DNA of 64,000 nt from Acaryochloris sp. CCMEE 5410. GTDB taxonomy: Bacteria; Cyanobacteriota; Cyanobacteriia; Thermosynechococcales; Thermosynechococcaceae. Below the pieces are notes generated by a model. The model made no database searches. It had not been told where the DNA came from and saw only the letters and a program-made list of their open reading frames with translations. The translations under genes and the position numbers were made by a program. Positions 2,036-57,178 of the stretch are shown here, one piece after another (the first letter of the stretch is position 1; every line of letters starts with the position of its first letter). The stretch is taken from assembly GCF_000238775.2 (NCBI RefSeq), contig NZ_AFEJ02000003.1, forward strand, positions 310,001-374,000, read 5' to 3'.

Positions 2036-3979
2036 ATGAGAGCGTGGCTAAAATCAATCTACCAATCGACCTTTTTCCCTGCAATATCTAACTTGAAAGA
2101 TACTGAAGAAGACCGGGAAACAGCCTCGCAATGGGTAGTTTGGATGAGGAAACAGTGGTCAGGTCACGGACTAACCACCTTGAATCAACAAAAGAACCCA
2201 ATGACAGAGGTTCGGAGGGCACTTAAGGATCAATTATCACCAGACCACATCATTTTTGATTACATGCAATTTACTGAGAATCAGTGGATTGAGATTAACC
2301 TTCAAGCAGCTCCTACACCCATTGTCTATGGCGACCCGTTGATTAAAGACCCTGACACCATTGTCCACAGAGCGACCCAACTCCTAAATAGCCGTCAATG
2401 GGCTGATAGCCTAGCTGGCCTGACCGCAGTTACGGGGCGACGTTGCGCCGAGCTACTGAAAACAGCTACATTTGCCTATCAATCTCCGGTTAGTATTTGG
2501 CTCACTGGAGCAACCAAAGCCAAGCAAAAGGAACCTCTTTCTTTTGAGCTACCCACCCTTGCTCCCGCTCAACAGGTATTAGACATAATCTCCAAGGTCC
2601 GTAAGTTGGTGGATACAACGGGAATGAATAACCGGCAGATCAATGCTCAGTATGAAGCCGATGTGGTTACGGCCTGCGATCGCACCTTCTGGGATCTTCT
2701 TGATCACGAGCGTGTAGAAGGAAATATCTACAACCATCTTTCCCGCACTGTTTACGCCCGGATAGCTACTCTTTGGTACGCACCCCCACAAATCCTGGAT
2801 ATTGACTTCATGGCAGCAATCCAAGGCCACACCATTATCCTGGGAACCAATGACCTAGAGGATAAAAAAGCCCTCGCAGAAAAGCGACATTATTTTGATT
2901 ACCAGATCGGAACTCAACAAGGTCAAATAGATTCACGGCAAGGTATTCGTCTGAGTGACCCAGACGTGAGTTTTCTAGAGAATTTCCAAGGCGAGGATGA
3001 ACTTGCACCTAAAATAGAAGACACACCTGTACCTAATCCAGTCATGAGTCAACCATCTGCTAGCTCAATTCGGGTATACAAGAAAGACCGGCAACGCTTG
3101 ATGAAAATTCTGGAAGCGTATGGCATAGAGGGGACACGCCCTGAGCAAATGTCGGCGTTTATTTCCGAGGCAGAACAGAAACTCAAACAAACCCAGCTTC
3201 TTGAAAAGGGTGTTAAAGCGTTCATCAAGTCACTCAAAGCCCTGGAGACTCCTGAAGAGATTCGTGACCTCGTACTGAAAGAGATTGCCAAGTTTGAAGA
3301 TTACCCCGATTTCTTCGGAACTTATCGCAACGAGATTCAAGACGCAGTGAGATCGTGCAACTTACCACTCGTGGATGGTAAGACAGCTTTGCGATCGCAA
3401 AATGTCAAGGAAGGCGTCACCTATGAACAGCGAAAGCACTTCGCCTTATTATTTTTAGACAATCCAGATATGACACTTCAAGCACCTGAATCACTCGTAG
3501 CACCAAACAACGGCACACCAACCCCTTCAGCTACCACCACCGATCAAAAGCTGGATATCATCACCGATACGCTTACTCAGTTATGCCAGCTTATGCTTCA
3601 GCAGCAACAGCAATCGGTGCAGCAGCAACCCAACGTTGTTGGACAGACTATTCCTCTTTCACAACCTCCAGCCCCGGCGAAGAAGAGAGGGAGAGGCCGC
3701 TTAGATCCAGAAGAGGCAGATGCCAAGATTCACCGTGCTATCGATGCAATTATGGCTTTCAATGACACTGCCAACCGACCTCAAGAAGAGATGTGGCGAA
3801 TAGGAATTTCTTCACTTAAAAGACTTACGAGTTCGTCTCAGAGCGTCATTCAGAGGGTTTGCAAGAAGAGGAAAAAAGATATTGATGCCCATCATGAGAA
3901 GCACAATCTAGGAAAGTACCATAATCTACCCCATGGACATGCAGGGATTATGATCGATGATGTTATTGCCTGGGAGTGA
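2036..3979 (+). CDS. Telomere resolvase (protelomerase)-like tyrosine recombinase
   Basis: Residues ~110-290 fit the catalytic core of protelomerases (TelN/TelK/ResT family), which cut a palindromic site and reseal it as hairpin ends through a Tyr-DNA intermediate. The motif LTAVTGRRCAELLKTA carries the first Arg (135/136), as in protelomerases. Lys161/163 in a predicted hairpin, Arg237 in HLSR, His265 in IQGH and a Tyr (286 or 289) in HYFDY fit the remaining R-K-R-H-Y positions. The His-Tyr spacing is longer than in TelN, so the nucleophile is uncertain. A Gln-rich linker and a basic C-terminal region with a possible helix-turn-helix (~600-630) follow. The start lies 2 bases after the previous stop, so it is the last gene of the kinase operon. 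It could be an ordinary tyrosine recombinase relative, but the TGRR context argues for the telomere-resolvase branch. Confidence 0.7.
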   Translation: MRAWLKSIYQSTFFPAISNLKDTEEDRETASQWVVWMRKQWSGHGLTTLNQQKNPMTEVRRALKDQLSPDHIIFDYMQFTENQWIEINLQAAPTPIVYGDPLIKDPDTIVHRATQLLNSRQWADSLAGLTAVTGRRCAELLKTATFAYQSPVSIWLTGATKAKQKEPLSFELPTLAPAQQVLDIISKVRKLVDTTGMNNRQINAQYEADVVTACDRTFWDLLDHERVEGNIYNHLSRTVYARIATLWYAPPQILDIDFMAAIQGHTIILGTNDLEDKKALAEKRHYFDYQIGTQQGQIDSRQGIRLSDPDVSFLENFQGEDELAPKIEDTPVPNPVMSQPSASSIRVYKKDRQRLMKILEAYGIEGTRPEQMSAFISEAEQKLKQTQLLEKGVKAFIKSLKALETPEEIRDLVLKEIAKFEDYPDFFGTYRNEIQDAVRSCNLPLVDGKTALRSQNVKEGVTYEQRKHFALLFLDNPDMTLQAPESLVAPNNGTPTPSATTTDQKLDIITDTLTQLCQLMLQQQQQSVQQQPNVVGQTIPLSQPPAPAKKRGRGRLDPEEADAKIHRAIDAIMAFNDTANRPQEEMWRIGISSLKRLTSSSQSVIQRVCKKRKKDIDAHHEKHNLGKYHNLPHGHAGIMIDDVIAWE

Positions 3980-8153: not shown

Positions 8154-9494
8154 CTACAACCCTGTACAATCCAAATGTTTTCGAAAGTAATCCCGAAAGA
8201 GCTGGCAACTGATCACACAGGCATTACCCTGCCAACTGACCAACCCCATGCTGTGAAGCTGAAACGCCTGTTTTGTACCCAGTTGAATGCCGTCTTCAGC
8301 CTCAAGCACCCTGCAGAAAGCAGTCTTCAGTGTTGGATCATTCTGCAAGTTGGACAGCAAACAACGCAGATAATTACCATAGATTCCCCCTTCAGTCGCA
8401 GAATCGGCCAATACCTCCATCAACGTAAGAGGATAGTCATGTAAGTTTGATAGTGCCTGCTGTATGAGGTCAGGATGTCCCCCCACCATTTCCATTAGGG
8501 GAGAATATCCCCGCTCATCAAGTTGATCCTCATTAATGTGAAAGCTCTGGGCAAGCTCTTTAACCTGAGACAAGGTAAATGTGGGTAGGACGATTGGCTT
8601 CCCTACATTAAAAGGCGAGTAATTAATATCTAGCGTAGGATAAGATTGCGTGGAATTAACCACAATAAGATGTAACTGCTTCCAGCACTGGCCAGTAGTG
8701 TTACTAAGCTTTGCTTGTTCGTGCCACCCCCGCAATAGTGAGCAAAAATCTTTGAAAATGGACTCTCGCTCAAAGAGCACATCAAAATTATCAAAGGCTA
8801 AAATAAGTGGCTCTTCAATTTTTACTAGAAGATATTTTTGGAAGTAGCGAGTACAGCTTAGACTGGCCCCTAAACTGCTCCGCCAATATTTCTCAAATTG
8901 ATCCTCAAGGTCTAGACTATCTGCCGTATTCGCGCAAAACCACTGAAGGAATGTTTCCAAATCACAGAAGATATTACAATCAGCCAGTTTTAGATCAATA
9001 GTTACCGTTTGATAGCCTGCCTCACTAGCACATCCCAACACCTGGTTCATCAACCAAGTTTTACCCATCTTTTGAGGAGCCTTAATCCGTACTAATGCCC
9101 CAGGCTGCTGAATCGCCTCAAAACATCTTGTCTCAATTGGAGGACGCTCTATATACACTTCAGATATGACAGAGTCAGATTGTCTGCGGGAATCGGGGGG
9201 TGGCTCACTGGGCTGATGCTTCTCCAGCCATCGCTTCATCGGCTCCTGAAAATTATTCTTTGAGACTGGCTCATTCAATGCCTTTCTGAGTTTGCGCCAA
9301 AGCTTATTGCCCACATCCTTGTTGAGATAGTCAGCCGAATACCCAAAGCGCTCAGCAATCTCCACATAGGTCAATCCTTCCCAAGAGCCAATAAGAACCT
9401 TGATCTCAACATCCCTCAGATGCATACCTGTACTTTGAAAAACAAGTGTATCAGCAACCTTGACAACCATATCTTGAGTCAGGTTGATGCTCAT
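8154..9494 (-). CDS. VMAP-type N-terminal HTH plus AAA-like NTPase
   Basis: Residues ~20-90 fit the helix-turn-helix found at the N terminus of vWA-MoxR-associated proteins: YVEIAERFGYSADYLNKDVG then KLWRKLRKALNEPV. After a Pro/Ser linker comes an AAA-like NTPase with Walker A APQKMGKTWL and a Walker B-like ILAFDNFDVLF, in which Asp-Asn-Phe-Asp replaces the usual Asp-Glu. A winged-helix-like C terminus follows. The ATG at MSINLTQ is preferred to an upstream in-frame TTG. It is the first gene of a two-gene operon with the WD40 NTPase. The same HTH type recurs at about 54 kb. A role in ligand sensing or conflict is inferred from the family. Confidence 0.8.
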   Translation of the reverse strand: MSINLTQDMVVKVADTLVFQSTGMHLRDVEIKVLIGSWEGLTYVEIAERFGYSADYLNKDVGNKLWRKLRKALNEPVSKNNFQEPMKRWLEKHQPSEPPPDSRRQSDSVISEVYIERPPIETRCFEAIQQPGALVRIKAPQKMGKTWLMNQVLGCASEAGYQTVTIDLKLADCNIFCDLETFLQWFCANTADSLDLEDQFEKYWRSSLGASLSCTRYFQKYLLVKIEEPLILAFDNFDVLFERESIFKDFCSLLRGWHEQAKLSNTTGQCWKQLHLIVVNSTQSYPTLDINYSPFNVGKPIVLPTFTLSQVKELAQSFHINEDQLDERGYSPLMEMVGGHPDLIQQALSNLHDYPLTLMEVLADSATEGGIYGNYLRCLLSNLQNDPTLKTAFCRVLEAEDGIQLGTKQAFQLHSMGLVSWQGNACVISCQLFRDYFRKHLDCTGL

Positions 9495-9775
9495 CACTAG
9501 GACCGATTGACAACACTTCAATTAATCACATGGTATCGCTAGAAGTTCAATCGGTTTTCAAATTTCCTGATTATTGCTGATTAGCTTCAATGAGTTTTGC
9601 TACTCATCCTGACAAAACCTGATTTTTATAGTAGTTGATGCCTTATTAGCGAAGATACTATCAGGATTAGATATCCTATTTCTTCCCCATTGAGAATTTA
9701 GTTTGTCTCCTGAATGATTGGACTTATCAATTCAATCGATGTGATAAAAAATTGGGTCACTCAAGGAGAATAGAA

Positions 9776-10435
9776 ATGAAATGGTATACTGCAGCCGCAT
9801 CATTAACTGTAGGACTTCTAATTCCAGTTTGTGCGTTTAGTCCAGTCGCAGCAACTGAACAGCTCCCCAAAAAACTTACCGAAGCCTTTGATGCTTCGAC
9901 AAGGATAGGAACTAGTGAAAATAACTCTAGCTTAAGGACTGTCCATGATAAGAATCAAACCAGGGCACAAATCCCTTTCAACTTAAGCAGACTACTCGAT
10001 CAAATCGAACGGCATCGAGACTTTTTGCAAACCTATGCTCTCAGCGAAGCCCATCGACTTAGTGCAGGCGCACCTGTTAGATGGGATAAAGCAACTACCC
10101 AATTTAACCTCCGAAACCGTCAGCTCGCTGTGACTTTGCACGGCAAAGTCAAGACACCTACCAAAATTTTGCGTGATAAATCGACAAATCTTACCCTTTA
10201 TCTGCAACCAGATCGCCATTTCAATTTTCGATTGACAGGGTATCGTCTGAAAATTAACCGTTGTGGCTTTATCTGTCGCCGCAAAGCGAAGCGGGTAAAA
10301 AAACAACTCAAACAGCAGCTAACAGCACAAGCTCCTCGCATTGAAGCTACCGTCAATAACAAGGTTAGAGAGATTTTACGTAACACCTTAAAGGTCTCCA
10401 GCCATCAGGCACAACCAGCATTACAGGACAAATAA
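9776..10435 (+). CDS. Exported hypothetical protein
   Basis: The start at MKWYTAAAS is set by a strong Shine-Dalgarno (AAGGAGAAT), with a cleavable signal peptide ending near FSPVAA. The mature part, about 190 residues, is basic and has a predicted beta-rich middle (RQLAVTLHGKVKTPTK, TLYLQPDRHFNFRLTGYRLK), then two Cys in CGFICRRK and a Lys/Gln-rich helix. This suggests a periplasmic lipid- or polymer-binding protein. I do not recognise the family. It is transcribed alone, divergently from the NTPase pair. Confidence 0.75.
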   Translation: MKWYTAAASLTVGLLIPVCAFSPVAATEQLPKKLTEAFDASTRIGTSENNSSLRTVHDKNQTRAQIPFNLSRLLDQIERHRDFLQTYALSEAHRLSAGAPVRWDKATTQFNLRNRQLAVTLHGKVKTPTKILRDKSTNLTLYLQPDRHFNFRLTGYRLKINRCGFICRRKAKRVKKQLKQQLTAQAPRIEATVNNKVREILRNTLKVSSHQAQPALQDK

Positions 10436-10787
10436 GTAGACGATACCAAAATCTCAAGATCAAACGGTTTAACGCAAGTAGCATTAAAGCGACAGAGTTT
10501 GACTAGTCCAAGTCAGCATTTTCTTTCTCTTCCTTAAATACACTTCCCTCAAGCCAAGTAGAACCAAGGCTGCTACCCAGAAACATTCTTGAGTTTCTTT
10601 AAAGGGGCTGCTGTCTTAGATGGCTGGAAGATAGGCTGACAAATTTTTTAACCAGCTTGTTGACGAGCATTGACACTCTCAGTAATTTTTTGTGCAGCTA
10701 AACCATAAGGTATTGGATTGGATGGAAAAAATAAAGGATTTGAAGGAATACATCAAATTTAAGCAAGTTTCTGTGGAGAATTAAATT
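10436..10787. other. Intergenic region with no clear feature
   Basis: No coding frame with protein-like composition, no tRNA shape and no strong inverted repeat were seen here. The last 30 bases hold the Shine-Dalgarno (TGGAGAA) of the metalloprotease gene. A promoter for that gene is likely in the A/T-rich second half, but no convincing -35/-10 pair stands out. Confidence 0.4.
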
Positions 10788-17408: not shown

Positions 17409-17786
17409 TCAAAGAAGAGCGCTGCCGATCAAATCATCATCAACACCGGACATTAGACTGGACATCGGTTGATCACGAGGGGAAGTATCAGTGCTTTGGG
17501 AAGAAGGTGTAACATTGGCCGCGTTTTCAATACCAAAGGTTTGGCGAAGATAGTAACAGTGACTCTCTAGCTCTCGGATAGAATTCAGTGCTGCTTGGCG
17601 GACCTGGGCTGGATCATTACCAAGGGCTTGTAGAGCAAAGGGATGCCAGTAGGCAAAAGTCGGAACTAGCAACATGCGCTTACTATCAGGCCAGACGGTT
17701 TGACTTGATTTGAGGTATTTGAGCGTAGTGGCGTAAGGCGAGTCACTGCTCACTTGAATACGTGACTGAAAATCATAACTAGGCAT
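17409..17786 (-). CDS. ParR-like adaptor protein of the actin-type segregation system
   Basis: A 125-residue protein encoded directly after the actin-like gene, overlapping its stop by eight bases (ATGCCTAG). In type II partition systems the gene after parM encodes the centromere-binding adaptor ParR, usually about this size. The sequence has a predicted helical core (PAQVRQAALNSIRELESHCYYL) and a disordered Ser/Asp-rich tail ending DDDLIGSALL, like the acidic or hydrophobic C-terminal tails with which adaptors touch filaments. I cannot match it directly to ParR; the call rests on position, size and tail. Confidence 0.5.
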   Translation of the reverse strand: MPSYDFQSRIQVSSDSPYATTLKYLKSSQTVWPDSKRMLLVPTFAYWHPFALQALGNDPAQVRQAALNSIRELESHCYYLRQTFGIENAANVTPSSQSTDTSPRDQPMSSLMSGVDDDLIGSALL

Positions 17787-19050
17787 TTACGGGAACCTTT
17801 GCACTGTACAAGATATAGAAAAAGGCTTTGGGATCAGCTAATCGGATACTAAACGCATTCTGCTTTACCCAATCTCCGTGGTGTTTCTCGATATCCGTAA
17901 TAATTTGCTCACACCAGCTTGTCTCAGCCTTACTAAATAGGGAGTTAAGCTCTCGTTGAAAATAGAATGCAGTCCCACCAGCAAAAATAACTTCGTCAAC
18001 AGAGGATGGAATTTCCCGCTGCAATAGGTCTTCCATGGCAGCCCAATACTCAGATCTGGCATCCAATGCTGCCCTTTGAACTTGGTTGAGTGTTTGCTGT
18101 TTCAAGTCCCTGTCTTGGATTGAAATCAACTCCTTTAGTGCCTTTAGACTGACCTTGGACCCAGCCTCATAGATAGTTGCCGCAATATCTTGGTCAGCTT
18201 GTCCCGGCAAGAAGGGTTTTACAGCTTGGACAATTTTTATAAACCCCAAGTCGTTAGTGATCCCCTTGATCAATACCCCCCGATCCATCAGCAAGATAGA
18301 GACATTTCTAAAACCAATCATAATCACACAAACCTGGCGTTGCTTGAGACTGAAGCCTGACTGCCGACCCCGGAAAAACAAGCCAAACCCTTCTGGCTTG
18401 CAGTCTAAACTCTCAAGCTCAAAGCTAAGTTGTTGCCCCCTAAACTTAAAGTCTTGGATGGCCTCAAGCAGTGAGCGTTCAAACAATGCTCGATGCTCGT
18501 ACTCGGACCAGGGCAACAGGAGTCCCAAACGGACTGCTGAACCGTTTGGTAGTTTCTTGCGCTGAGCCAGAATTCCAATAATTGCCAATACTTTATACAA
18601 CGATTGCACAAACTTAGGCTCAGACAATCTAAGGTCTGTGTGAAATGAAAATTGCCGTGCGAGAAATCCAACCGCTCGACAATCATCTTGGTACTCAACC
18701 CATGCTGAATTTTGCGGTTCAGCATGACTGAACTGCCCTAAGCTGGTCAATCGTTGCTTGGAAACTTTGGCGACTTCTGGCTCCATCAATAGGAGTCCTG
18801 GTTTAAACTCACTGAGCGTGTAATAAACTTTGCCCAGTGATGAACCAGGATCGAAGGCGATAGTAATATCTGCCACGATTCTAATCTTTTGTATTTGTAG
18901 TAGTCGAAGGTTTGCTGCCAGCCGCTGAACCAAACGTTGGCCAACAACACTGAAATCATAGTTGAATTTTTTTGAGTTGGCAAATATCAGGATAATTCTA
19001 GGGGAAGGATATTCTATGGACCTTTGAAGTATGAACACAGGTAACTTCAA
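17779..19050 (-). CDS. parM: ParM/StbA-like actin ATPase for plasmid segregation
   Basis: Actin-fold motifs appear in order: phosphate-1 ADITIAFDPGSSLGKVYYTL, phosphate-2 VCVIMIGFRNVSILLMDRG and adenosine motif VDEVIFAGGTAFYF. ParM-type proteins form filaments that push plasmid copies apart, with ParR bound at the centromere. The ~420-residue length suits the plasmid group. The N-terminal ~60 residues before phosphate-1 are unusually long, and one of two repeated DNA blocks lies inside their coding sequence, so the true start may be an internal TTG about 45 codons downstream. First gene of a four-gene operon. Confidence 0.8.
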   Translation of the reverse strand: MKLPVFILQRSIEYPSPRIILIFANSKKFNYDFSVVGQRLVQRLAANLRLLQIQKIRIVADITIAFDPGSSLGKVYYTLSEFKPGLLLMEPEVAKVSKQRLTSLGQFSHAEPQNSAWVEYQDDCRAVGFLARQFSFHTDLRLSEPKFVQSLYKVLAIIGILAQRKKLPNGSAVRLGLLLPWSEYEHRALFERSLLEAIQDFKFRGQQLSFELESLDCKPEGFGLFFRGRQSGFSLKQRQVCVIMIGFRNVSILLMDRGVLIKGITNDLGFIKIVQAVKPFLPGQADQDIAATIYEAGSKVSLKALKELISIQDRDLKQQTLNQVQRAALDARSEYWAAMEDLLQREIPSSVDEVIFAGGTAFYFQRELNSLFSKAETSWCEQIITDIEKHHGDWVKQNAFSIRLADPKAFFYILYSAKVPVNA

Positions 19051-46760: not shown

Positions 46761-47753
46761 ATGTTGGATAAGCTATGTTGCCCGCTGTGCGGTAGCTCGA
46801 TCTATTTTTTGCTAGATAGACCTAGCCAACTCATCACATGCAAAACCTGTCGGTTTTCAAGCAAGATTAATCAGGTCCAAGTGGAAAGCCATGACAGCAT
46901 AACCACTCAACAAAACAATAGGGATTTAACTAGTTGGAGACACAGGCTACGTGTCCGTCCGCTGACCAGCGAAATTGGAAAGCAAATGAAATACTTAGTT
47001 GAATTTGATTTGGCCAGAGACACTTACGTTGCCTCTCTTGGGGATAAGATAGCGTTATTTCACAGGTATAGGCAAGGAAGTTTTAGTGATTTGTTTGCAA
47101 TTCGTAATCTAACGATTCAAACGACTATACCTATCAAAACAATCAAATCGGAGCCTAGAATTGCTGGCCTTGGTATCTCAATCATCGCTCTATCTGGGAT
47201 ACTCTTGCTCTCTAATTCAGTCGGCAGCTATAAAAATCTATTGCAATACTCCGCAGTACCTCTTAGTGCTGCCATTGGCCTCACCGCCATGAAGACTTAC
47301 CAAAAGCGACTTTGTGGGCAATCTGAAGCCAGCATCATTCAAGAGCAAGGGTTAATGAGGAATATTCATGAGTTACTAGTCAAACTGAGTAGAGTTCAAG
47401 AAGAGATTACGGCTCGGGCTCAATCACTCTCAGAGTGGCAAGAGCTTGAGCAATCTACAAAAACCATTGATGGCCATGGGCCAAATGTAGCGAACATTGA
47501 AAAAGCGATCGCTCTGATACAGCAGCAACAGCATTCGGCTGAAATCTTGAAAGACAAATACGACCAACAAATTAAGCTGTGGTGGCTTGAACTTCAAGCA
47601 TCACGACTTAGTGATGAACTACCGGTGGACCTGATTCAAGTAGAGACCACTAGGCAGCACGAAATAGCTGAACTTGAGGACTCTTACCATTTGTTGGCTT
47701 TGCAACAAAATTTCCATGCAGAGACGGATAACCAACAGAATTTAAGCACTTGA
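46761..47753 (+). CDS. Membrane protein with N-terminal zinc ribbon and coiled coil
   Basis: The chosen start gives MLDKLCCPLCGSSIYF; a GTG 45 bases earlier would extend it into the divergent gene's start. A four-Cys zinc ribbon (CPLC and CKTC) is followed by a ~100-residue domain, two membrane helices (LGISIIALSGILLLS, LLQYSAVPLSAAIGL) and a long coiled coil (~200-320). No family recognised. It is the only plus-strand gene within the mating/replication block and converges on the replication gene. Confidence 0.65.
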   Translation: MLDKLCCPLCGSSIYFLLDRPSQLITCKTCRFSSKINQVQVESHDSITTQQNNRDLTSWRHRLRVRPLTSEIGKQMKYLVEFDLARDTYVASLGDKIALFHRYRQGSFSDLFAIRNLTIQTTIPIKTIKSEPRIAGLGISIIALSGILLLSNSVGSYKNLLQYSAVPLSAAIGLTAMKTYQKRLCGQSEASIIQEQGLMRNIHELLVKLSRVQEEITARAQSLSEWQELEQSTKTIDGHGPNVANIEKAIALIQQQQHSAEILKDKYDQQIKLWWLELQASRLSDELPVDLIQVETTRQHEIAELEDSYHLLALQQNFHAETDNQQNLST

Positions 47754-50700
47754 AATATTAACTGAACTCTGTATGGGTTCTAGGTTCTGGAGCGGGCAGG
47801 GGATATCAACAAGATCAACAGGTTGGCCAACCCAACTTAACCACGCGAACTCATTCACAATTTTCCTTACCCGGAAGACGACCTGATCCCCGCATCTTTT
47901 AACTAAAGCACCAGGACTAATGTCTGGAAGATTTAGATTAGATACCGGCAAGGTAATCAAACTGGGTTTCTGGGTATTCTCTATTTTGGTTTTGGCTACA
48001 CCTCTGCTTATAATTATACATTTTTGAGTTGCAGGTGTAGCCACTTCAATCCCTTTATTTTCAGTGCATTCAGGCGCTTCCATATATTGTTGGAATCGAG
48101 TTTCAATGCATTCCAACAACACATGATTGAGTTCTATATTATCTGGAGAAATAAAATAATATCTCCGCTTTCCTCTTTCGCTATTGCGCTGCCAGTTTTG
48201 CTCGACTTCAGTCTTGCCGCCAATTAGTTTTGCTAGACGCCCCAGAAACTCCATAGGTTTTTGCTTACCCACTGTGCGTTTTAGCGCTGTCACGATTTCT
48301 CGTCGTTTACAAGTACGATAGATTTGCTGAATTAAACTGGATGAGCTGTTAAAAGATTGGTTGGACTCGAAAAGCGCTAGCAGATTGATCTTGCATAGAG
48401 CCTCAATAAGAGCGAAGTCTGAACGAATGTCAGGCAAGAAGGGAATTGCGCCATCCTCCATCAGTTTTTCCCAGCGCTGGCGGCTTCGGTTCTGGGCAGC
48501 AGTTTGGTGATTGATCAACCACCAGCGTTCGAGGGAAGGAATTAGGGATCGATTCGTAAACAGAAGGGCTTTAACGACATCGGGGGTCCAGTAGTCTGTT
48601 CGATGTAATCCAGGAAGTCGGTGTAGGAGGAACGCTTTATCACAGCTCCACCGTTCTGCGAGAGTTGCACTCCACCTAGATTTAATGTGAATGGCTTGGG
48701 AAAGTGTAATATCCTTGGCATTAAATATTGCCTGTGCATCGGTGGTTAGGATCTGATCGCGAATTTCAGAAGCTTCTTCTTTTAAGCTGGTGACTTGAGG
48801 AAGATCAACAATGGTTACTCGATGCCCAGCTTCTTGGAGAGCAAGTCTAAGGCAGTCCCAGGTATGCTTTCTCTCATAGTTGATGGATGCAGCCAGAATA
48901 TTGTGTGTGGAAAGGTGAGGATCGTTATAGGTTTTGAGTAGTTTATTGATCCACTCTTTGACTGTAGACTCCCGATCCGATCCTTGTAAGGCGGCGAAGG
49001 CATCGGCTCTGAGATAATCCGTCATCCATTGTTGGAGGCGACGGGGGAGGACTGAACGAGTCCCTTCATCTTCTGTGTGCGTGTATCGCTTACACCAGAC
49101 CGCTATTTCTTTCAAGGCTCTGACCCGCTGCATCATTTGGGTCATGCTGGAAATTGGCAACACACCGAAAAAGAGACCAAATCCCTTGTAGAAGAAGTTC
49201 TGAATGCCTACATTTAAACCACTTTCTGCTGTTGGTGAGTAGATCAAGACTCGGGGTTGAGTTTCTTCTAGATAAAAGTCAGGGTCTTTTAGAAACTGCT
49301 TTACCTCTTTATTCGGAGAGGTTTTAGAGTCAACCCGAAGGGTTGAATAGCCTCGCTGTTGAAACAGTGATTCTGCAATCTGACATTGCCGTTGAGAGTC
49401 CGAAAACAAAACGATTGAACGCGGGGTATTAGATGGAGCTAAATCTAAGGCGGCCAACGTGTCAAATGCTAACTGTAGAACTGGTGAACGTTCGTCAATC
49501 GTGTTTCCTTCGGCGGTAATCGTATTCCCCAATAGCTCAATATGCAGTTGTTGCCGCTGATAGGTGTTGAGGATTTTACGGCATGTCCCTACCTCTCTCA
49601 ATTGCGCGAGATAGTCCACGACGACATCAGTATTGTTACCGTCCATTGGTAGTACAAGTTTTGCTCGTTGGATTGCAGCTTTAAGCTTTGCCAGACATTT
49701 ATCTCTTTTGCCAGTGAGGGTACCAGACATCAACCCGTGGAGGACAACACTAAGGCTTTCATCTAAGATGACGATTTTCCCGTCAAAATCCTTGTCTTCA
49801 AAGCGAGTCAAGGAATCTAAGCAACAGGCGATTCTGGATTGGGGATCTGGGATAAGGGGTTGGGCAGAATCGGAATGTAGGTGATAGAATCCCGGCCAAC
49901 GTTCACAGGACTGGAGTAGAAGGGAGTTCCGGTATCCAATTGCTACGGCACCGTCTGAAATCTGGCTGAAGTAGTTTTTTAGCCATTCCGTTTTCCCAGT
50001 CCCCATGCCTGATTTAATCGCAACGATGTCAGCTCCATCTAGATCTGCCGGTTGCAGATTCAGAAATTGTTCATGAATCGTTTGAGTGGGCGTAAATTGC
50101 CGTGATTTTTTCCAAATCTTTAGGGATTGTTGCTCATACTGATGCTGCCATTGATCGTCAATGATGGCTTTACTCATCGCCAGGTAAGTGCTGGGTGTGA
50201 GCAGCCTGATTTGTTGTTGTTTATCGAGGTCTAATTCATCAATATCGCTATCATCATCGTAGGAATGTTGGTCCCACCAAGCGATACTTAGCGAATACCC
50301 CCAGCCTTGTAGAAGAGATGCCGTTTTAGCGATCGCAATATAAACCGACCGATTGGAACTATCACCGGCATCTGGATAGAGGATGATTTGCTCAGGCTGT
50401 AGCACCTCTAGGGTCTCTTTCACCGCTTCAGGGCTAGAGGCAAAGTTAAACCCCGTCGCGCCGATAAAGGTTATCCCCATTTGCTGGCTAGCGAGATAGG
50501 GTTTGAGGGCAACGCTATCAACTAAGCCAATAGTTTTAGAGTCAGTTCTATGAACGGCGATGGGGGATTCTCCCGTTGGGAGCTGCGGCCCGCTGCCGGG
50601 GATGGGTAATTTATCTGAACTGGAGCTAACCCAAAAGTAACCGCCCCCAAAGTTAGGGCGAATTTGCACACCGGTGATCTGACCATGGACGTTGGGAACT

Positions 50701-51242
50701 GCGATCGCAAGTCCCTGATAATATCGCCGCAATAATCCAGTGGATGGATCTACCCCTGGGAGATTGAGTGGGAGCAAGGGGAGTTTGGCGTTGTCCTGCC
50801 AGGTCCAGAATAGGTGTTTCTCAACGGCCTGATGTATTTGATTATTCGACAGACCCCGATGCTCTATGAGGTGTTGGCGTTGTTGCGACCCTAGCCCTGC
50901 ACTAGCAGCAATACGATGGAATTGATAGTCTCGCTCTTCGATACTGGGAAGTTGAGATAGCCGTTGAGCCCGTTCAGCAGCTAGTTGTCTCTCTCGGGCT
51001 AAGCGTTCCTGTTCTTGCTCTTGAGTTGGATTGGAACGCTGGCTATGGGCCTCGGCGGTGATGTACTTTCCAAATCCGTGAGTGTCGAAACCGTCAAATC
51101 GGTACTCTCCTGAGTGATTCTCAGGGCCACGACAAAAATAGGTTCCTGAACTTGACTTTCGACAATCTGGCTTGCCGCGAGAGCCATTGCAAATGGGGCA
51201 AAGGTCGCCAAGTTTGTTCTTGTAGTAGTGAAAGCTAGACAT
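47742..51242 (-). CDS. CyRepA1-family plasmid replication protein (primase/helicase-like)
   Basis: An N-terminal Cys/His zinc-binding region (CPICNGSRGKPDC and then CRGPENH) and a TOPRIM-like domain (IGLVDSVALKPYLASQQMG, EQIILYPDAGDSS; DUF3854 type) lead into a helicase with Walker A AIKSGMGTGKTEWL, DExx-like KIVILDESLSVVLHG and a motif VI QMMQRVRAL. This architecture is that of CyRepA1, reported to support autonomous replication of cyanobacterial plasmids. The usual TOPRIM Glu is replaced by Asp (LVDSVALK). 1166 residues. The origin may lie in the 576-bp upstream gap. Its 3' end overlaps the convergent gene by 12 bases. Confidence 0.8.
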   Translation of the reverse strand: MSSFHYYKNKLGDLCPICNGSRGKPDCRKSSSGTYFCRGPENHSGEYRFDGFDTHGFGKYITAEAHSQRSNPTQEQEQERLARERQLAAERAQRLSQLPSIEERDYQFHRIAASAGLGSQQRQHLIEHRGLSNNQIHQAVEKHLFWTWQDNAKLPLLPLNLPGVDPSTGLLRRYYQGLAIAVPNVHGQITGVQIRPNFGGGYFWVSSSSDKLPIPGSGPQLPTGESPIAVHRTDSKTIGLVDSVALKPYLASQQMGITFIGATGFNFASSPEAVKETLEVLQPEQIILYPDAGDSSNRSVYIAIAKTASLLQGWGYSLSIAWWDQHSYDDDSDIDELDLDKQQQIRLLTPSTYLAMSKAIIDDQWQHQYEQQSLKIWKKSRQFTPTQTIHEQFLNLQPADLDGADIVAIKSGMGTGKTEWLKNYFSQISDGAVAIGYRNSLLLQSCERWPGFYHLHSDSAQPLIPDPQSRIACCLDSLTRFEDKDFDGKIVILDESLSVVLHGLMSGTLTGKRDKCLAKLKAAIQRAKLVLPMDGNNTDVVVDYLAQLREVGTCRKILNTYQRQQLHIELLGNTITAEGNTIDERSPVLQLAFDTLAALDLAPSNTPRSIVLFSDSQRQCQIAESLFQQRGYSTLRVDSKTSPNKEVKQFLKDPDFYLEETQPRVLIYSPTAESGLNVGIQNFFYKGFGLFFGVLPISSMTQMMQRVRALKEIAVWCKRYTHTEDEGTRSVLPRRLQQWMTDYLRADAFAALQGSDRESTVKEWINKLLKTYNDPHLSTHNILAASINYERKHTWDCLRLALQEAGHRVTIVDLPQVTSLKEEASEIRDQILTTDAQAIFNAKDITLSQAIHIKSRWSATLAERWSCDKAFLLHRLPGLHRTDYWTPDVVKALLFTNRSLIPSLERWWLINHQTAAQNRSRQRWEKLMEDGAIPFLPDIRSDFALIEALCKINLLALFESNQSFNSSSSLIQQIYRTCKRREIVTALKRTVGKQKPMEFLGRLAKLIGGKTEVEQNWQRNSERGKRRYYFISPDNIELNHVLLECIETRFQQYMEAPECTENKGIEVATPATQKCIIISRGVAKTKIENTQKPSLITLPVSNLNLPDISPGALVKRCGDQVVFRVRKIVNEFAWLSWVGQPVDLVDIPCPLQNLEPIQSSVNISSA

Positions 51243-51818
51243 AACCTAACTCCCACTTATCAGAGTGGATGCAAGATGAATTCATTGAACAACTCCCATA
51301 TTGTGCTTTGACTATGTGTCGGAGGGGAGTTGTGAAAATATTTTGAGCACACTCTTGAAATGTTATCAAGAGTAGTCTAAAATTTAGGCACAACGAAACC
51401 GGGACACCCATCGCGCTGCTAATGCTTTAGGCTCCCACCCTTCGACAAATAAATTGTTTGAACGGCTTCTTCCCCCGACTGTGACAGGTAAGGGGGTTTA
51501 GTCGTTTATGGGCTTCTTTTTACCTCCTTTTTTAGCTGTTTGTATTAGGGTTGAAAATACACCGAAATGCTTGATCGATCAAGGGTTTAGCGTATTTTGT
51601 AACCGTAAAGTCTACGGTCTCTCCTCTTAGAGAGACATGAAGATATGTCACAGCCTTCTTTCTCCTTGGGCTGGCATGGATCGGTCTCAATGGTATAGAT
51701 AGCAGAAACCTGGACCGATTCTTACACGAGCCCTCAAGGGTTTAATCATGGTTCATTGATACCGCAATCCTACAACAAACTTTTTGAATGATCAAAGTGC
51801 GATCGCTAGAACTGTGAT
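51243..51818. other. Replication-gene upstream region with nested dyads (candidate origin/control region)
   Basis: No gene is visible. A 14-bp perfect palindrome (CTTGATCGATCAAG, 51570-51583) sits centrally between AAAATAC (51554-51560) and GTATTTT (51592-51598), extended by GGTT/AACC. Close by are ACCGTA/TACGGT (51602-51618) and GTCTCTC/GAGAGAC (51617-51636) hairpins, and ATCGGTC/GACCGAT (51680 and 51713). One HIP1 octamer is near the end. Such dense dyads before a rep gene are typical of origins, operators or an antisense control RNA. Confidence 0.5.
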
Positions 51819-52778
51819 TTAAATTCTTTTTGCCTGCCGCTTTGTTGCTGTCGTCCAGGCTAGAACTGCATCAGTACAACGTTCTGGATTAGGCTCACAG
51901 CAAATGCATTGACATTCAAGACGATCTAGCAAGATAAATAAAGAGGGGTCTGGGAGTCCAATGATTACGACTGACTCGCTCGCATCGGCAGTTCCAATAA
52001 CGCAGCTTTCAATGGTTTGTCTAAGAGTCTCAAAGTGAAAGTCTTCTAAGGTTGTGTGGAATGCAAGTGTACTTTTGGTATTCCCCGGTATGCTTTTTGG
52101 CCATTCTTTGGCATTGTTGGGAAAATTGATCAGCAGGGCAATCTCATCAGGAAGAATTTTTCGGAATTTCAGAGCTGAGCTGTCGCCGCAAAATAATCTG
52201 TGGTATCTACCGATGCTCCAAATCTCTCCTTTACGCACCTGTTTGAATCGACTAACTTTCTGAGTTGTCTTAGTTTTCTTCTTCGTTTCGACCTTTCTTT
52301 GTCGTTTACCTGTTTTGGGCTTGGCAAGGGGTGGAGTAGGGACACTCACCACTTCTTCAGCAGCATCTTTATGGATTTCAATCAGTTCACGAGCTATTCT
52401 TTTACCCACATACTCGGATTGAGCCATCTCCAATGCTTCTTGTCGTGCCTCTTCAGGGACAGAAGGGGCTGAGAGCAGGTAAAGTGCAGATTTTGCTATT
52501 TCTAGTTCCGAGAAATTTGCATCATGGAAGCACCTCGCTACCCGCATAAAATTATCGGCAGTGCGTGCTGACATCTCGAATTCAGCATCGATCCAGTCCA
52601 TGAAATAGCCATGGGCTAGTTGTCCCTTTACTTCAATCAGGCTTATACCAATTTTGACAATATTGTCGATGGTGGCAGAGAGAAGATCTTTGATCTTGTT
52701 TGTCTCTTGCTTTAAGCGCTCAGAGAGTTCTGCGTCCAGTTGGCTGTAATCAAAAGAACTGGCTCGTAAGTTTGGCAT
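51819..52778 (-). CDS. DUF3102 protein fused to a degenerate DNA-methyltransferase-like domain
   Basis: Residues ~15-150 fit DUF3102: a helical domain with VKGQLAHGYFMDWIDAEFEM and SARTADNFMRVARCF. After a Lys/Thr-rich linker, residues ~185-319 follow an N6/N4 DNA methyltransferase (as fused to ParB proteins): GEIWSIGRYHRLFCGDSS is the usual start, and EPNPERCTDAVLAWTTATKR the usual end. The catalytic DPPY is replaced by NFPNN and the SAM-binding DPFxGSG by GLPDPSLF, and the middle is shortened. It should bind DNA or partners without methylating. Its paralogue without this domain lies across the TTGCAA array. A role in copy control or partition is inferred. Confidence 0.65.
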   Translation of the reverse strand: MPNLRASSFDYSQLDAELSERLKQETNKIKDLLSATIDNIVKIGISLIEVKGQLAHGYFMDWIDAEFEMSARTADNFMRVARCFHDANFSELEIAKSALYLLSAPSVPEEARQEALEMAQSEYVGKRIARELIEIHKDAAEEVVSVPTPPLAKPKTGKRQRKVETKKKTKTTQKVSRFKQVRKGEIWSIGRYHRLFCGDSSALKFRKILPDEIALLINFPNNAKEWPKSIPGNTKSTLAFHTTLEDFHFETLRQTIESCVIGTADASESVVIIGLPDPSLFILLDRLECQCICCEPNPERCTDAVLAWTTATKRQAKRI

Positions 52779-52850
52779 CGTTGGAATCTTCAGTGAATAA
52801 TCGTCATTGATACCTCAAGCATAGTCACAGCAAGCGAAACAAGGTGTTTT

Positions 52851-53063
52851 ATTTGCAAACTGTTGCAAATCTAAGGTAGAGGTTTTTGCAACAATTGCAA
52901 AAAACGAGTGGATCAAAATTGCAAAATATTGGAAGGGCTTTTTTGCAAATAATTGCAACCGTTGCAATTATGCCAGCCAGCGGTAATTCTCGCTAGAGAT
53001 GAGGATCAAACTGGCTTTAAGTATAGAACTCAGTCAGTAGACTTTTTGCAACAGTTGCAAAAA
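52851..53063. repeat. Array of TTGCAA palindromes between the two DUF3102 genes
   Basis: TTGCAA occurs ten times (52852, 52862, 52885, 52894, 52918, 52942, 52952, 52961, 53046, 53055) plus one variant TTGGAA at 52928. Neighbours in a pair or triplet are spaced 9-10 bp, about one helical turn, and often sit in longer palindromes with T-tracts and A-tracts; the last has arms TTTTTGCAAC and GTTGCAAAAA around one base. This looks like a cooperative binding array: operator, iteron set or centromere. Confidence 0.85.
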
Positions 53064-53738
53064 CTAGTTAGCTGATGCTTCTTGCCCCGAGAAATAATCC
53101 ACTAATTCTGAGCAAACCTTCTGAATTGTTTTTATCTGTACAGACTGTACCTCAAGAAGTAGCTCAGCACTCCCTTTGGTTTTTCGTTTAAATAGAATTA
53201 AATTAGTCGGCTGTTCTTTAACCTCTTTAACCTCAATGCTGGGGATATCAATGGTTGCAGTAGTAGCTTCGATTCCCTCATCTTGCTTGATTCGTTTGTT
53301 TTGTTGAGCGATGATCTCTTTTACTCTATGTCGGCTTAGTTTCTCTTTTTCAGCAAGGGCGAGTACTGCTTCTCTTGTTTCTTCAGAAACAGTGGGTCTG
53401 GCTAATTCGTAGAGAATTGTGAGCGGAAGATCTGTGCTTGTTAAGGTTGCGAAGTCGAAGGCTTCAGCTAAATGCATTTGATTATAAGCTGTGCTTGGAG
53501 ATCCATTGAACTCGCATTTAATCCATTGGCAGAAGGTTCCCCGTTCAAGCTTAGCTTGAGCTTCTAACAGAATTTTACCGACTGTATAAGCATCTTGACG
53601 GGTTCTTGAATATACAGCTTTTATCGCATTTGTTTGTTTGAGCAGAAATTTACGAGTCTCTTTATCAAGCGAATCATACTCAAACAGTCCAGACTTAATA
53701 CTATTGGTAGTTTTTGGCTGATTGAGTGAGCTTGACAT
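53064..53738 (-). CDS. DUF3102-type protein, paralogue without methyltransferase-like domain
   Basis: 224 residues. The first ~150 match the neighbour's DUF3102 domain in order (GKILLEAQAKLERGTFCQWI, STAYNQMHLAEAF, LYELARPTVSEETREAVLAL), and a Lys/Glu-rich C terminus follows. Its last codons touch the final TTGCAA palindrome. The paralogue pair facing one repeat array suggests both bind it or regulate each other. The gene start lies 250 bases from the divergent NTPase gene. Function unknown. Confidence 0.7.
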   Translation of the reverse strand: MSSSLNQPKTTNSIKSGLFEYDSLDKETRKFLLKQTNAIKAVYSRTRQDAYTVGKILLEAQAKLERGTFCQWIKCEFNGSPSTAYNQMHLAEAFDFATLTSTDLPLTILYELARPTVSEETREAVLALAEKEKLSRHRVKEIIAQQNKRIKQDEGIEATTATIDIPSIEVKEVKEQPTNLILFKRKTKGSAELLLEVQSVQIKTIQKVCSELVDYFSGQEASAN

Positions 53739-53987: not shown

Positions 53988-55364
53988 GTGGAACTTAGTG
54001 AAGCCATAGAAAAAATTAATTATGAGCTGTGTTGCTGTACAGGGGAGCAACTTGGCCCAGCCCAGGAGGTTGTCATTACCGCTGCTTGGGTGGATCAAAG
54101 TTATGAAGAAGCTGCTCTAAGCTCGGACTATAGTTATCTTTATCTTCAACGACATGTAGGCCCAAAGCTATGGGCAGCATTATCTGCGACATATGGACAG
54201 AAAGTGACTAAAAAAAGACTACGTTCCATTGTTGAAGATCAATCTGTTGGTTCTCTACCCCAACAACAAGAAACTATCTCTGATGCTGAAGTTAAAAGTG
54301 TTACTGACTCAGTAATTTTGGGTAGCAGTCTTCCTAGTAATAATGTCTTTTACGGCAGAACGCCAGAATTGGCTCTATTGCGCGCAAGTGTCCTCGATAC
54401 ACAATGTGTTCTGGTACTGGGTCAAGCAGGTATTGGTAAAACAAGCTTAGTTGCACAGCTAGTTAAAAAGTTGAAAAATGAGCCGCAAACCCTAGACATA
54501 TTTGTTTGGCGTCCATTCTATAGTTCAACACCCCTAAGTGAGTTAGTTCCAGAATTGTTGGGATTACTAGATGTTTCTCAATCTGAGGATGAAGACTTGA
54601 TAAATCAGGTTGACCAGTTAATTGAATCCTTGAAAGAGCATCGCATCCTATTGGTATTAGATGGTGTGGATCGATTACTGGAAGGAAAAGACCCTCAACA
54701 GCCATATGGAGATTGTGGTGATTACGCTTGGTTTATACGCACTCTTACAACTGAGGTTCATCAATCTTGTATTCTGTTGACTAGTAGAGAGCCCTTGACA
54801 GAGGTGACTTGGTTGAATGAAACCGGGCAATCTGCACGAATTATTCGATTAGACGGTCTGGGTAAAGATGCCAAGAAGCTCCTTAAAGCACAAGAATTGG
54901 CAGATCAAGATGATTGGGGGACACTGATTCAGATCTACCGAGGCAATCCTTTGTCTCTCAAGATGGTAGCGAGTCGTATAAACAGTTTTTTTAATGGTCG
55001 AGTTAGTCGTTTTCTGAAATGCAAAACTACCTGGATGGGAGAGCCACTTAAACAAGCCCTTGATACTCAGTTTAAGATTGGCCCTTGGTCAGATCTGGAG
55101 CGTGGCTTGATGCAGTATTTAGCAGACGATTTAAAAGAATCGGAACAAATCGCATTTGGCCAGGTGTACCAGACCTTGAAGGATAGAGGCATGATTCAGA
55201 CTATGACTGAATTGATGGAAGCGATAGAAATTTTGTGCGATCGGTCTTTATTAGAGCGGAATCAATCAGATGATAGTGAGGTAATGCTATCCCTACAGCC
55301 TGTAATCAAGAAGTACCTTCTCACAGATCCTTCAGGCATTATTCATAACTCCCTCGCGGCATAG
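53988..55364 (+). CDS. VMAP-type HTH plus NB-ARC-like NTPase
   Basis: It starts with GTG. Residues ~30-80 are the same VMAP-type HTH as at 9.4 kb (QSYEEAALSSDYSYLYLQRH, VGPKLWAALSATYGQKVTKK). Residue ~123 begins an NB-ARC/STAND NTPase with Walker A GQAGIGKT (145-152), Walker B RILLVLDGVDRLL and sensor SCILLTSREPL. A winged-helix end follows (~380-450). There is no repeat or effector domain of its own, so it probably acts with the kinase gene 24 bases downstream, coupling ligand sensing to phosphorylation. The family is linked to bacterial conflict systems. Confidence 0.8.
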   Translation: MELSEAIEKINYELCCCTGEQLGPAQEVVITAAWVDQSYEEAALSSDYSYLYLQRHVGPKLWAALSATYGQKVTKKRLRSIVEDQSVGSLPQQQETISDAEVKSVTDSVILGSSLPSNNVFYGRTPELALLRASVLDTQCVLVLGQAGIGKTSLVAQLVKKLKNEPQTLDIFVWRPFYSSTPLSELVPELLGLLDVSQSEDEDLINQVDQLIESLKEHRILLVLDGVDRLLEGKDPQQPYGDCGDYAWFIRTLTTEVHQSCILLTSREPLTEVTWLNETGQSARIIRLDGLGKDAKKLLKAQELADQDDWGTLIQIYRGNPLSLKMVASRINSFFNGRVSRFLKCKTTWMGEPLKQALDTQFKIGPWSDLERGLMQYLADDLKESEQIAFGQVYQTLKDRGMIQTMTELMEAIEILCDRSLLERNQSDDSEVMLSLQPVIKKYLLTDPSGIIHNSLAA

Positions 55365-55387: not shown

Positions 55388-57178
55388 GTGAGCTACTGTA
55401 TCAATCCCAAATGTAGTTCGAGGGAGAACCCGGACACCACAGACATTTGCTTGGCCTGTGGTACTTCGCTGCTGGTGAAGGATCGGTATCAGTTGATTTC
55501 CCTAATCCGACCCCTCGATGGACCCCAAGGAGTAGAGGTCTTTGAGGTTGTCGATAGGTTGGGCGGGCTTGGAGTTCAACCCGGAACGCATCAGATCATG
55601 AAAGTGATGCCTCTCTCAGGAGACGAGATGCGGGACCAGAAGCGGATTGAGTTTATTCAGCGAGAGAACAAAGCCCTGCGACAAATTAATCATTTTGCGA
55701 TTCCCAAGGTACCAAAGGAAGGTTTTTTCGTCCTCCCAGCATCGGAGGTAGCCCCAGAAATTTATTGTTTAGTTCTTCAAAAGATGGAAGGGGAGACCTT
55801 AGACCAGTGGCTAGATTCCCATGATCCCCTGTCCCAAAACCTAGCCCTAGATTGGCTAGAACAACTGTGTCACTGTCTGCATGAGGTCCACAATCAAGAC
55901 TTCATTCACCGGGATATCAAACCTGAAAATATATTGTTGCAACCGGATGGTTCACTGGCACTGATTGATTTCGGTGCAGTACGGGACATCACACCTACCT
56001 ATATGGCTAGGCTTAGCTCCCACTCCAAACATCAGTCCCCTGGCTCCTTTGAGGGCACAGGTATCTACACGATTGGCTATGCGCCCCCGGAACAAATCGA
56101 CGGCAAAACCCTGCCCCAAAGTGATTTCTATGCTTTAGGGCGAACGTTCGTGCATTTAGTTACGGGTATCCATCCCCGACAGCTACCCGTGGATGAACAA
56201 TCTGGGGAATTAATCTGGCGAGAGCACGCCCCGCAAATTGAACCATCTCTCGTCAGTTTTTTGGATCGGCTGATGGCTATCACTCCGGGTAAACGCCCCT
56301 TAAATACAGCGAATCTACGCTCTACGTTTCTCCAAACCTTTTATGGAACCTCCAATGAGCGCCCGGTAGGAATTTTCAAACATAAGTGGACCCCCATCGG
56401 AGCTGGGATCGGATTATTAGTATTACTCGCTGGCATAGCGGGAGGGTATCACGTCAATTCAGCCTTGGATTATAGTCAGTCCGAGCTAACGATGGCAGAG
56501 GGGTTAGTTCACCTGGCGGATAATCGATTGAAAGAGGCTCAGGATATTTTCAAAGCCATTATTCAAAAGTATCCAGACGATAATGAAGCCCACTATTACT
56601 TGGCGTTAGCCTGCACAGGGGTTCAGGACTACTCCTGTGCAGAGGAGCATTATCAGATCGCCATTCGCCTTAACCCAAAAAATTGGCATAACTACTTTGC
56701 CCTCGGTAGTCTATACGATGATCTTGCAGGTCAAGAGCGAGAGCAACAGGAATATCAAAAAGCCAAAGCGCTTTATGATAAAGCCAAAGCGCTATACCAA
56801 AAAGCTCAGAACCAAGATCCTGAAGCCTTGGAACCGTTGAATAATTTAGCGAGATTGTCTCTTTTAGAGAAGGATGTAAATGCAGGACTCAAGTATGCTC
56901 AAACAGCCCTCTCATTAGCCAATCGACCCAGCGACAAAGCTGTAATTCACAAGAACTTGGGTTGGGCCAGGCTCCTTCAAGGGAAGAACGAATTAGCCGA
57001 TCAAGATCTCAATCAAGCTATCTCATTCAATCCAGATTTCGCTGATCCCTATTGTCTACTCAACCAAATCACACCATCCTCAGAGCATAAGGAATCCTGT
57101 ATCAGCCTACCTTCAGATCAAGCTGAAGTCCGAGAATGGCGACAAGATATCATTGAGGGAATTGAGCAAAAACTCTGA
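55388..57178 (+). CDS. Ser/Thr kinase with zinc ribbon, membrane helix and TPRs
   Basis: It starts at GTG (MSYCINPKC). A four-Cys ribbon (C4, C9, C21, C24) precedes a kinase with Lys in IMKVMPL, HRDIKPENILL, LIDFGAV and GYAPPEQ. The glycine-rich loop is weak (LGGLGVQPG), so ATP binding may be altered. One membrane helix (GAGIGLLVLLAGIAGGYHV) is followed by about five TPRs (AHYYLALACTGVQDYSCAEE, ARLLQGKNELADQDLNQA). This resembles SpkB/SpkF-type cyanobacterial kinases. It is the second gene of the VMAP-HTH NTPase operon. Substrate unknown. Confidence 0.88.
   Translation: MSYCINPKCSSRENPDTTDICLACGTSLLVKDRYQLISLIRPLDGPQGVEVFEVVDRLGGLGVQPGTHQIMKVMPLSGDEMRDQKRIEFIQRENKALRQINHFAIPKVPKEGFFVLPASEVAPEIYCLVLQKMEGETLDQWLDSHDPLSQNLALDWLEQLCHCLHEVHNQDFIHRDIKPENILLQPDGSLALIDFGAVRDITPTYMARLSSHSKHQSPGSFEGTGIYTIGYAPPEQIDGKTLPQSDFYALGRTFVHLVTGIHPRQLPVDEQSGELIWREHAPQIEPSLVSFLDRLMAITPGKRPLNTANLRSTFLQTFYGTSNERPVGIFKHKWTPIGAGIGLLVLLAGIAGGYHVNSALDYSQSELTMAEGLVHLADNRLKEAQDIFKAIIQKYPDDNEAHYYLALACTGVQDYSCAEEHYQIAIRLNPKNWHNYFALGSLYDDLAGQEREQQEYQKAKALYDKAKALYQKAQNQDPEALEPLNNLARLSLLEKDVNAGLKYAQTALSLANRPSDKAVIHKNLGWARLLQGKNELADQDLNQAISFNPDFADPYCLLNQITPSSEHKESCISLPSDQAEVREWRQDIIEGIEQKL

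Follow-up and report, generated by a model that had tools for sequence, protein, structure and literature searches.

Fusions of a ParB-like domain with a methyltransferase are found in phages and plasmids (loci L029 and L031), and their order is that of the family described below: a ParB-like domain followed by a methyltransferase, which is entered through the motif GDIWLLGxHRLFCGDS. Bce_0392 of Bacillus cereus is a ParB-methyltransferase fusion (PMC5512222). StrR-like regulators with a ParB-like domain activate antibiotic clusters (PMC10886168). Among cyanobacterial plasmids, pSYSA of Synechocystis has a Rep of the same family, CyRepA1, as the plasmid studied here, and its copy number is under antisense RNA and RNase E control (PMC9978351). 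DUF3102 (PF11300) is described by Pfam as a family of unknown function, of which two proteins of the present locus are members; in two papers on tolyporphin clusters a DUF3102 gene appears next to devB and devC, with no DNA-binding role ascribed to it.

The window, that is, the whole stretch of 64,000 nucleotides analysed here, corresponds to bases 310001-374000 of contig C3 of Acaryochloris sp. CCMEE 5410, which accounts for 416 kb of an 8.1-Mb genome. The locus comprises the following features:
51819..52778, minus strand: long paralogue, 319 aa, with DUF3102 at aa ~9-143, a linker at aa ~144-182 and a pseudo-methyltransferase at aa ~178-319
51822..52253, minus strand: pseudo-methyltransferase domain, with NFPNN replacing DPPY and DPSLFILL replacing DPFxGSGT
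52851..53063, no strand: operator-like array of 213 bp, ten TTGCAA, mostly in inverted-repeat pairs, plus TTGGAA at 52929
53064..53738, minus strand: short paralogue, 224 aa, DUF3102 without the methyltransferase domain
47742..51242, minus strand: CyRepA1 replication protein, 1166 aa, NF042913 E 2.4e-176

Both paralogues exceed the Pfam gathering cut-off for DUF3102 of 24.4 bits (36.6 bits for the long and 27.6 bits for the short protein) and share 31% identity over aa 4-151, while a Pfam search returned no ParB_N (PF02195) match in either. The long protein has its nearest named relatives on Acaryochloris plasmids. In the AF2 model of the full-length long protein (pLDDT 84.7) the linker falls below 50; it is basic and disordered, with 14 K/R versus a single D/E in 39 aa. 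The DUF3102 part was modelled inside the full-length protein, and the fold-search list obtained with that model was filled by matches of the pseudo-methyltransferase domain. The two paralogues are probably DNA-binding proteins, for which the DUF3102 half is a more obvious candidate than the dead methyltransferase; that the latter itself reads DNA is possible, as a guess.

The initial annotation had described two paralogous genes flanking ten TTGCAA sites spaced 9-10 bp. The genes and the count are as described, with exact sites starting at 52853, 52863, 52886, 52895, 52919, 52943, 52953, 52962, 53046 and 53055, ten in 208 bp. The spacing of 9-10 bp applies within pairs only, which form inverted repeats; from pair to pair, the centres of these repeats are mostly ~33 bp apart (three helical turns). 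The repeats are:
52851-52870: TTGCAA pair in the array
52883..52903, no strand: inverted repeat TTTTTGCAACAATTGCAAAAA, 9-bp arms
52949..52971, no strand: inverted repeat ATAATTGCAACCGTTGCAATTAT, 11-bp arms, the longest
53043..53063, no strand: inverted repeat TTTTTGCAACAGTTGCAAAAA, directly adjoining the short gene's stop codon

Against the ten sites observed in the 285-bp intergenic region, dinucleotide shuffling of that region, repeated 5000 times, gave a mean of 0.6 and a maximum of 4, and none of the other 285-bp stretches of the window contained more than two. The array is located downstream of the short gene and begins 73 bp upstream of the ATG of the long gene. Because both genes are on the same strand and read the same way, it lies upstream of the long gene, where the promoter is expected, and its position is thus operator-like. 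A scan of the relevant strand of the array found no sigma-70-like promoter, a result of little informative value.

The dead METHYLTRANSFERASE domain comprises the last 144 residues of the long protein and is predicted by AlphaFold with a pLDDT of 93.4. HMMER searches against Pfam and PDB sequences gave no match (none to PF01555 at E up to 10); kinship with methyltransferases was shown only by the fold and by a chain of profiles passing through ParB-type intermediates. In the VIA-align comparison the best 17 rows were all N6/N4 amino-methyltransferases (Z 8.2-9.8, the next, unrelated fold reaching 7.8), headed by M.BceJIV at Z 9.8 and including M1.HpyAVI, MboIIA, RsrI, PvuII and CcrM; the best Foldseek E, 2e-3, is modest taken alone. 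The structure prediction recommended by the initial annotation has in this way returned a Rossmann-type methyltransferase fold of the beta-class N6/N4 kind (PF01555). In hhalign, whose E-values in such two-profile comparisons are not database E-values, the plasmid pseudo-domain aligned with the longer ParB-type pseudo-domain over 142 columns (probability 98.7), the longer ParB-type pseudo-domain with active methyltransferases across the half bearing the SAM loop (97.5), and the plasmid pseudo-domain with active methyltransferases over the GDxWxLGxHxLFCGD start (95.5).

The motifs that the initial annotation quoted for the start and end of an N6-adenine methyltransferase are present. Alignments with relatives place NFPNN in the DPPY column and DPSLFILL at the DPFxGSGT position, supporting the claimed loss of the glycine-rich SAM loop. 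The decay can be followed from VFTDPPY in active phage enzymes through AIATPSS in a cyanobacterial ParB-type set and LLLSPPT in the sister genus to LLINFPNN in the window, and DPPY and DPFxGSG are both absent from all 44 family members checked. The dN/dS of the dead domain is 0.07-0.18 in pairs with measurable dS, dS being often ~1 or above. Sequence and model together support a C-terminal domain that derives from a beta-class N6/N4 amino-methyltransferase by decay, and the substitution rates support purifying selection on it.

A scan of the contigs yielded one relative, and the wider family comes from a domain survey of the class (cyanobacteria), in which 35 of 390 genomes had matches, some of the weaker of which may be active enzymes. 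Relatives of the dead domain are present in many cyanobacterial families. Three architectures were read, DUF3102-tail (~330 aa), ParB-tail (~445 aa) and a receiver-like segment preceding DUF3102-tail (~500 aa). The last was seen by eye at L014 5449-6948 and L070 1477-2970, where an N-terminal segment resembling a response-regulator receiver is followed by DUF3102 and the pseudo-methyltransferase. The ParB-type relatives have weak PF02195 and HTH_23 matches. On the named Acaryochloris plasmids the tail is joined to a ParB-like head, not to DUF3102, and one genome of the sister genus (G007) has several copies of DUF3102 type and one of ParB type.

The window protein is nested within the Acaryochloris ParB-type clade (support 97/96), and therefore its N-terminus has been swapped. 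Its N-half is 45-52% identical to the DUF3102 proteins of G007 and has no convincing match among the ParB-type proteins tested (the best covering 20 aa, E 0.24), whereas in its C-half the identity is 47-52% with Acaryochloris ParB-type proteins but 33-35% with those of G007. Parsimony places four head changes in the tree, three of them forced by well-supported branches. ParB-like and DUF3102 heads thus appear to have been exchanged on the same tail, with several swaps in the family. The cyanobacteria-wide relatives suggest a widespread and so far undescribed kind of DNA regulator.

The location beside a replication gene, another point of the initial annotation, stands: the Rep belongs to CyRepA1 (588 bits with NF042913, against a cut-off of 200), and the cassette recurs on several Acaryochloris plasmids and in relatives. 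The order short gene, long gene, noncoding stretch and Rep is common to the window, to C4 and C5 of the same genome, and to pREC3 and pMB03; on C6 the long gene and Rep were found with no short gene, and Rep-like ORFs lie near relatives in G007 and in G207. The Reps of C4, C5 and C6, which reside in one cell, are 90-93% identical, whereas the long proteins of C5 and C6 share only 60% identity and that of C4 is of DUF3102 type. Near-identical Reps accompanied by divergent long proteins in one cell, a correlation, are our main ground for proposing a role of the cassette in setting plasmid identity. Similarity between the window Rep and the C5-type Rep is limited to the N-terminal 350 residues, at 35% identity. 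Between the long gene and rep the following element was found:
51547..51606, no strand: conserved dyad around TTGATCGATCAA, flanked by AAATAC..GTATTT

Across the seven plasmids or contigs compared, whose cassettes are of ParB or DUF3102 type, 39 of the 72 positions of the dyad region are invariant. The dyad is a candidate origin or Rep site and may be recognized by the part that the window and C5-type Reps share. Two other roles were considered and rejected for it. As an RNA hairpin it shows double-sided change at only one of 16 pairs (RNAalifold), and no Rfam family fits. As a 43-bp substrate of the telomere resolvase of the window it is discounted by pREC3, pMB02 and pMB03, which carry the dyad and have no resolvase match. 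The resolvase gene itself (2036-3979, plus strand; PF16684 ResT/TelK, E 6.7e-24) is matched by homologues on plasmids of Leptolyngbya, Chondrocystis, Gloeothece and Gloeocapsa. It hints at a possibly linear replicon closed by hairpins, although the gene may also serve some other purpose.

The supposition that TTGCAA arrays accompany DUF3102 fusions on other plasmids was not supported: no TTGCAA clusters occur at the other cassettes examined, and, as a family-wide feature, the array was rejected when the TTTTTGCAACARTTGCAAAAA pattern (2 mismatches) formed clusters only on C3 among 28 genomes. The plasmids pMB02 and pMB05, which have ParB-type relatives, carry a different tandem array, GACMTAGC, one block of which on pMB05 begins just past the long gene. 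The pairing of an array with a matching head is thus suggestive for a minority of the cassettes only and does not amount to a family rule. Iteron-like direct repeats with a related core, CGGAGTTRCAGGT, were seen in three genomes (L011 8110-8411, L053 3043-3203 and L061 7940-8273).

Chromosomal relatives have other neighbours. For relatives located on a chromosome or another large contig, NRPS, PKS, FAAL or type II thioesterase genes lay within ~8 kb in 10 of 16 neighbourhoods, versus 0 of 20 stretches of 15 kb drawn at random from eight contigs of that genome set (Fisher p 3e-5, with query domains taken from three test loci and loci that are mutually related). The neighbouring genes were confirmed with Pfam to encode condensation, AMP-binding, ketosynthase and thioesterase domains. 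At L094-L109, DUF3102 and ParB pseudo-methyltransferases stand beside NRPS/PKS genes, some with DevB/DevC-like exporter genes.

Other genes of the window deserve description. An actin-like protein (17779-19050, minus strand), with no Pfam match, has CorM 9rmi (E 1.2e-8) and ParM as its best PDB matches, and therefore the separate ParM-type system invoked by the initial annotation is plausible. Divergent from the cassette are:
53988..55364, plus strand: NACHT/NB-ARC STAND NTPase, divergent, PF05729 E 1.1e-12
55388..57178, plus strand: Ser/Thr kinase with TPR repeats, PF00069, PADLOC PD-T4-6 model E 2.6e-86

Homologues of both lie beside the C4 cassette, NB-ARC genes are found at L009, L010 and L011, and pairs of NACHT and kinase-like genes recur at other cassettes.

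We propose, with even confidence and on inferred function, that the locus is a plasmid-control cassette in which CyRepA1 and an operator array, together with a pair of paralogous DNA-binding proteins, set copy number or identity. In the model, the DUF3102 domain, or the ParB-like one in relatives of that type, would bind operators, and at the window DUF3102 dimers would occupy the TTGCAA inverted repeats. Several such dimers, aligned along the same face of the DNA, would co-operate. The pseudo-methyltransferase may mediate this as a module for oligomerisation or for sensing a ligand, and the short paralogue, devoid of this module, would compete for or share the sites and so modulate the response. 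Binding would autoregulate the long gene and in this way also control rep, which lies downstream of it, setting the copy number. Exchange or divergence of the DNA-binding half would give separate identities to co-resident plasmids with near-identical Reps, and in chromosomal relatives this machinery would serve to regulate transcription of the clusters in which they are situated. Several observations speak against the model: the TTGCAA array was found only on this plasmid, and most ParB-type cassettes have no simple array comparable to it; no sigma-70-like promoter was seen in the array; the gene downstream of the cassette in pMB01 and pREC2 encodes a different protein, without a match to the window Rep; and on C4 an insertion sequence cuts the DUF3102 pseudo-methyltransferase gene (L017, about 9060-10500) while the plasmid persists. 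More tentatively, the family could represent a class of DNA-binding regulators that is new and spread across cyanobacteria. A degenerate methyltransferase inherited from phage-type ParB-methyltransferases would serve in it as a structural or sensory module, on which ParB-like and DUF3102 heads have been swapped repeatedly; plasmid swaps would create new incompatibility groups around near-identical Reps, and chromosomal members would control natural-product clusters.

The main rival is partition, with both proteins as ParB analogues and the array as a parS-like centromere, served perhaps by a distant ParA or by the ParM-like protein. That one and the same domain takes either a ParB-like or a DUF3102 N-terminus, that clustered sites beside rep are centromere-like, that pMB02 and pMB05 have their tandem GACMTAGC arrays and that ParA-like genes exist elsewhere on C3 all agree with it. 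We nevertheless hold it unlikely, as there is no ParA beside the cassettes examined (the nearest AAA_31 match on C3 is at 385610, ~22 kb from the array), C5 and C6 also have other ParB genes with ParA-like genes nearby, and chromosomal relatives often adjoin biosynthetic genes. Their position beside NRPS/PKS genes indicates transcription regulation at least as much as plasmid partition. It also favours a plain local regulator, StrR-like in manner, which would act on neighbouring cargo, for instance the divergently oriented NACHT and kinase genes, and have no part in plasmid maintenance, as do the activation of antibiotic clusters by StrR-like proteins and the divergent recurrence of NACHT/NB-ARC and kinase genes. 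The array, however, is placed between the short and long genes rather than in the 249-bp stretch upstream of NACHT, and Rep synteny persists in pREC3, whose cassette has no annotated NACHT or kinase gene beside it, which makes this reading improbable.

The remaining explanations concern the dead domain. A sensor that has kept the ability to bind S-adenosylmethionine, a different nucleotide or methylated DNA, and thereby gates DNA binding, would account for a fold kept at high confidence and a constrained sequence, but the SAM-binding loop DPFxGSG has disappeared from 44 of 44 relatives checked, and we consider it quite improbable. Evolutionary debris without function, to which the lost catalytic motifs and the interrupted C4 copy could point, is scarcely credible in view of the dN/dS of the dead domain and the relatives in many cyanobacterial families.

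If true, the plasmid-control proposal and its extension to the chromosomal relatives would provide a first function for DUF3102, an instance of a DNA methyltransferase surviving in DNA regulators as a pseudoenzyme, a testable explanation of how several large plasmids with nearly identical Reps are kept apart in one cyanobacterial cell, and a candidate switch for cyanobacterial NRPS/PKS clusters.

For pSYSA, the passages of PMC9978351 consulted describe no such cassette and make no mention of partition. ParB-methyltransferase fusions keep DPPY and DPFxGSGT, whereas the window protein has lost both, has a much shorter domain and begins with DUF3102. The ParB-type relatives are similar to StrR-like regulators in their N-terminal ParB-like domain, their HTH matches and the frequent location of chromosomal members beside biosynthetic genes (the 10 of 16 above); the window protein differs in its cyanobacterial host, its pseudo-methyltransferase C-terminus, its lack of the ParB and HTH combination, with no ParB match, and the position of its gene, beside rep and not in a biosynthetic cluster. 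From ParABS the locus differs by having no adjacent ParA, DUF3102 instead of ParB and two paralogues in the window, and it resembles ParABS in the ParB-like domain of its relatives and in its clustered DNA sites, ten TTGCAA close together beside the genes of putative DNA-binding proteins and next to rep.
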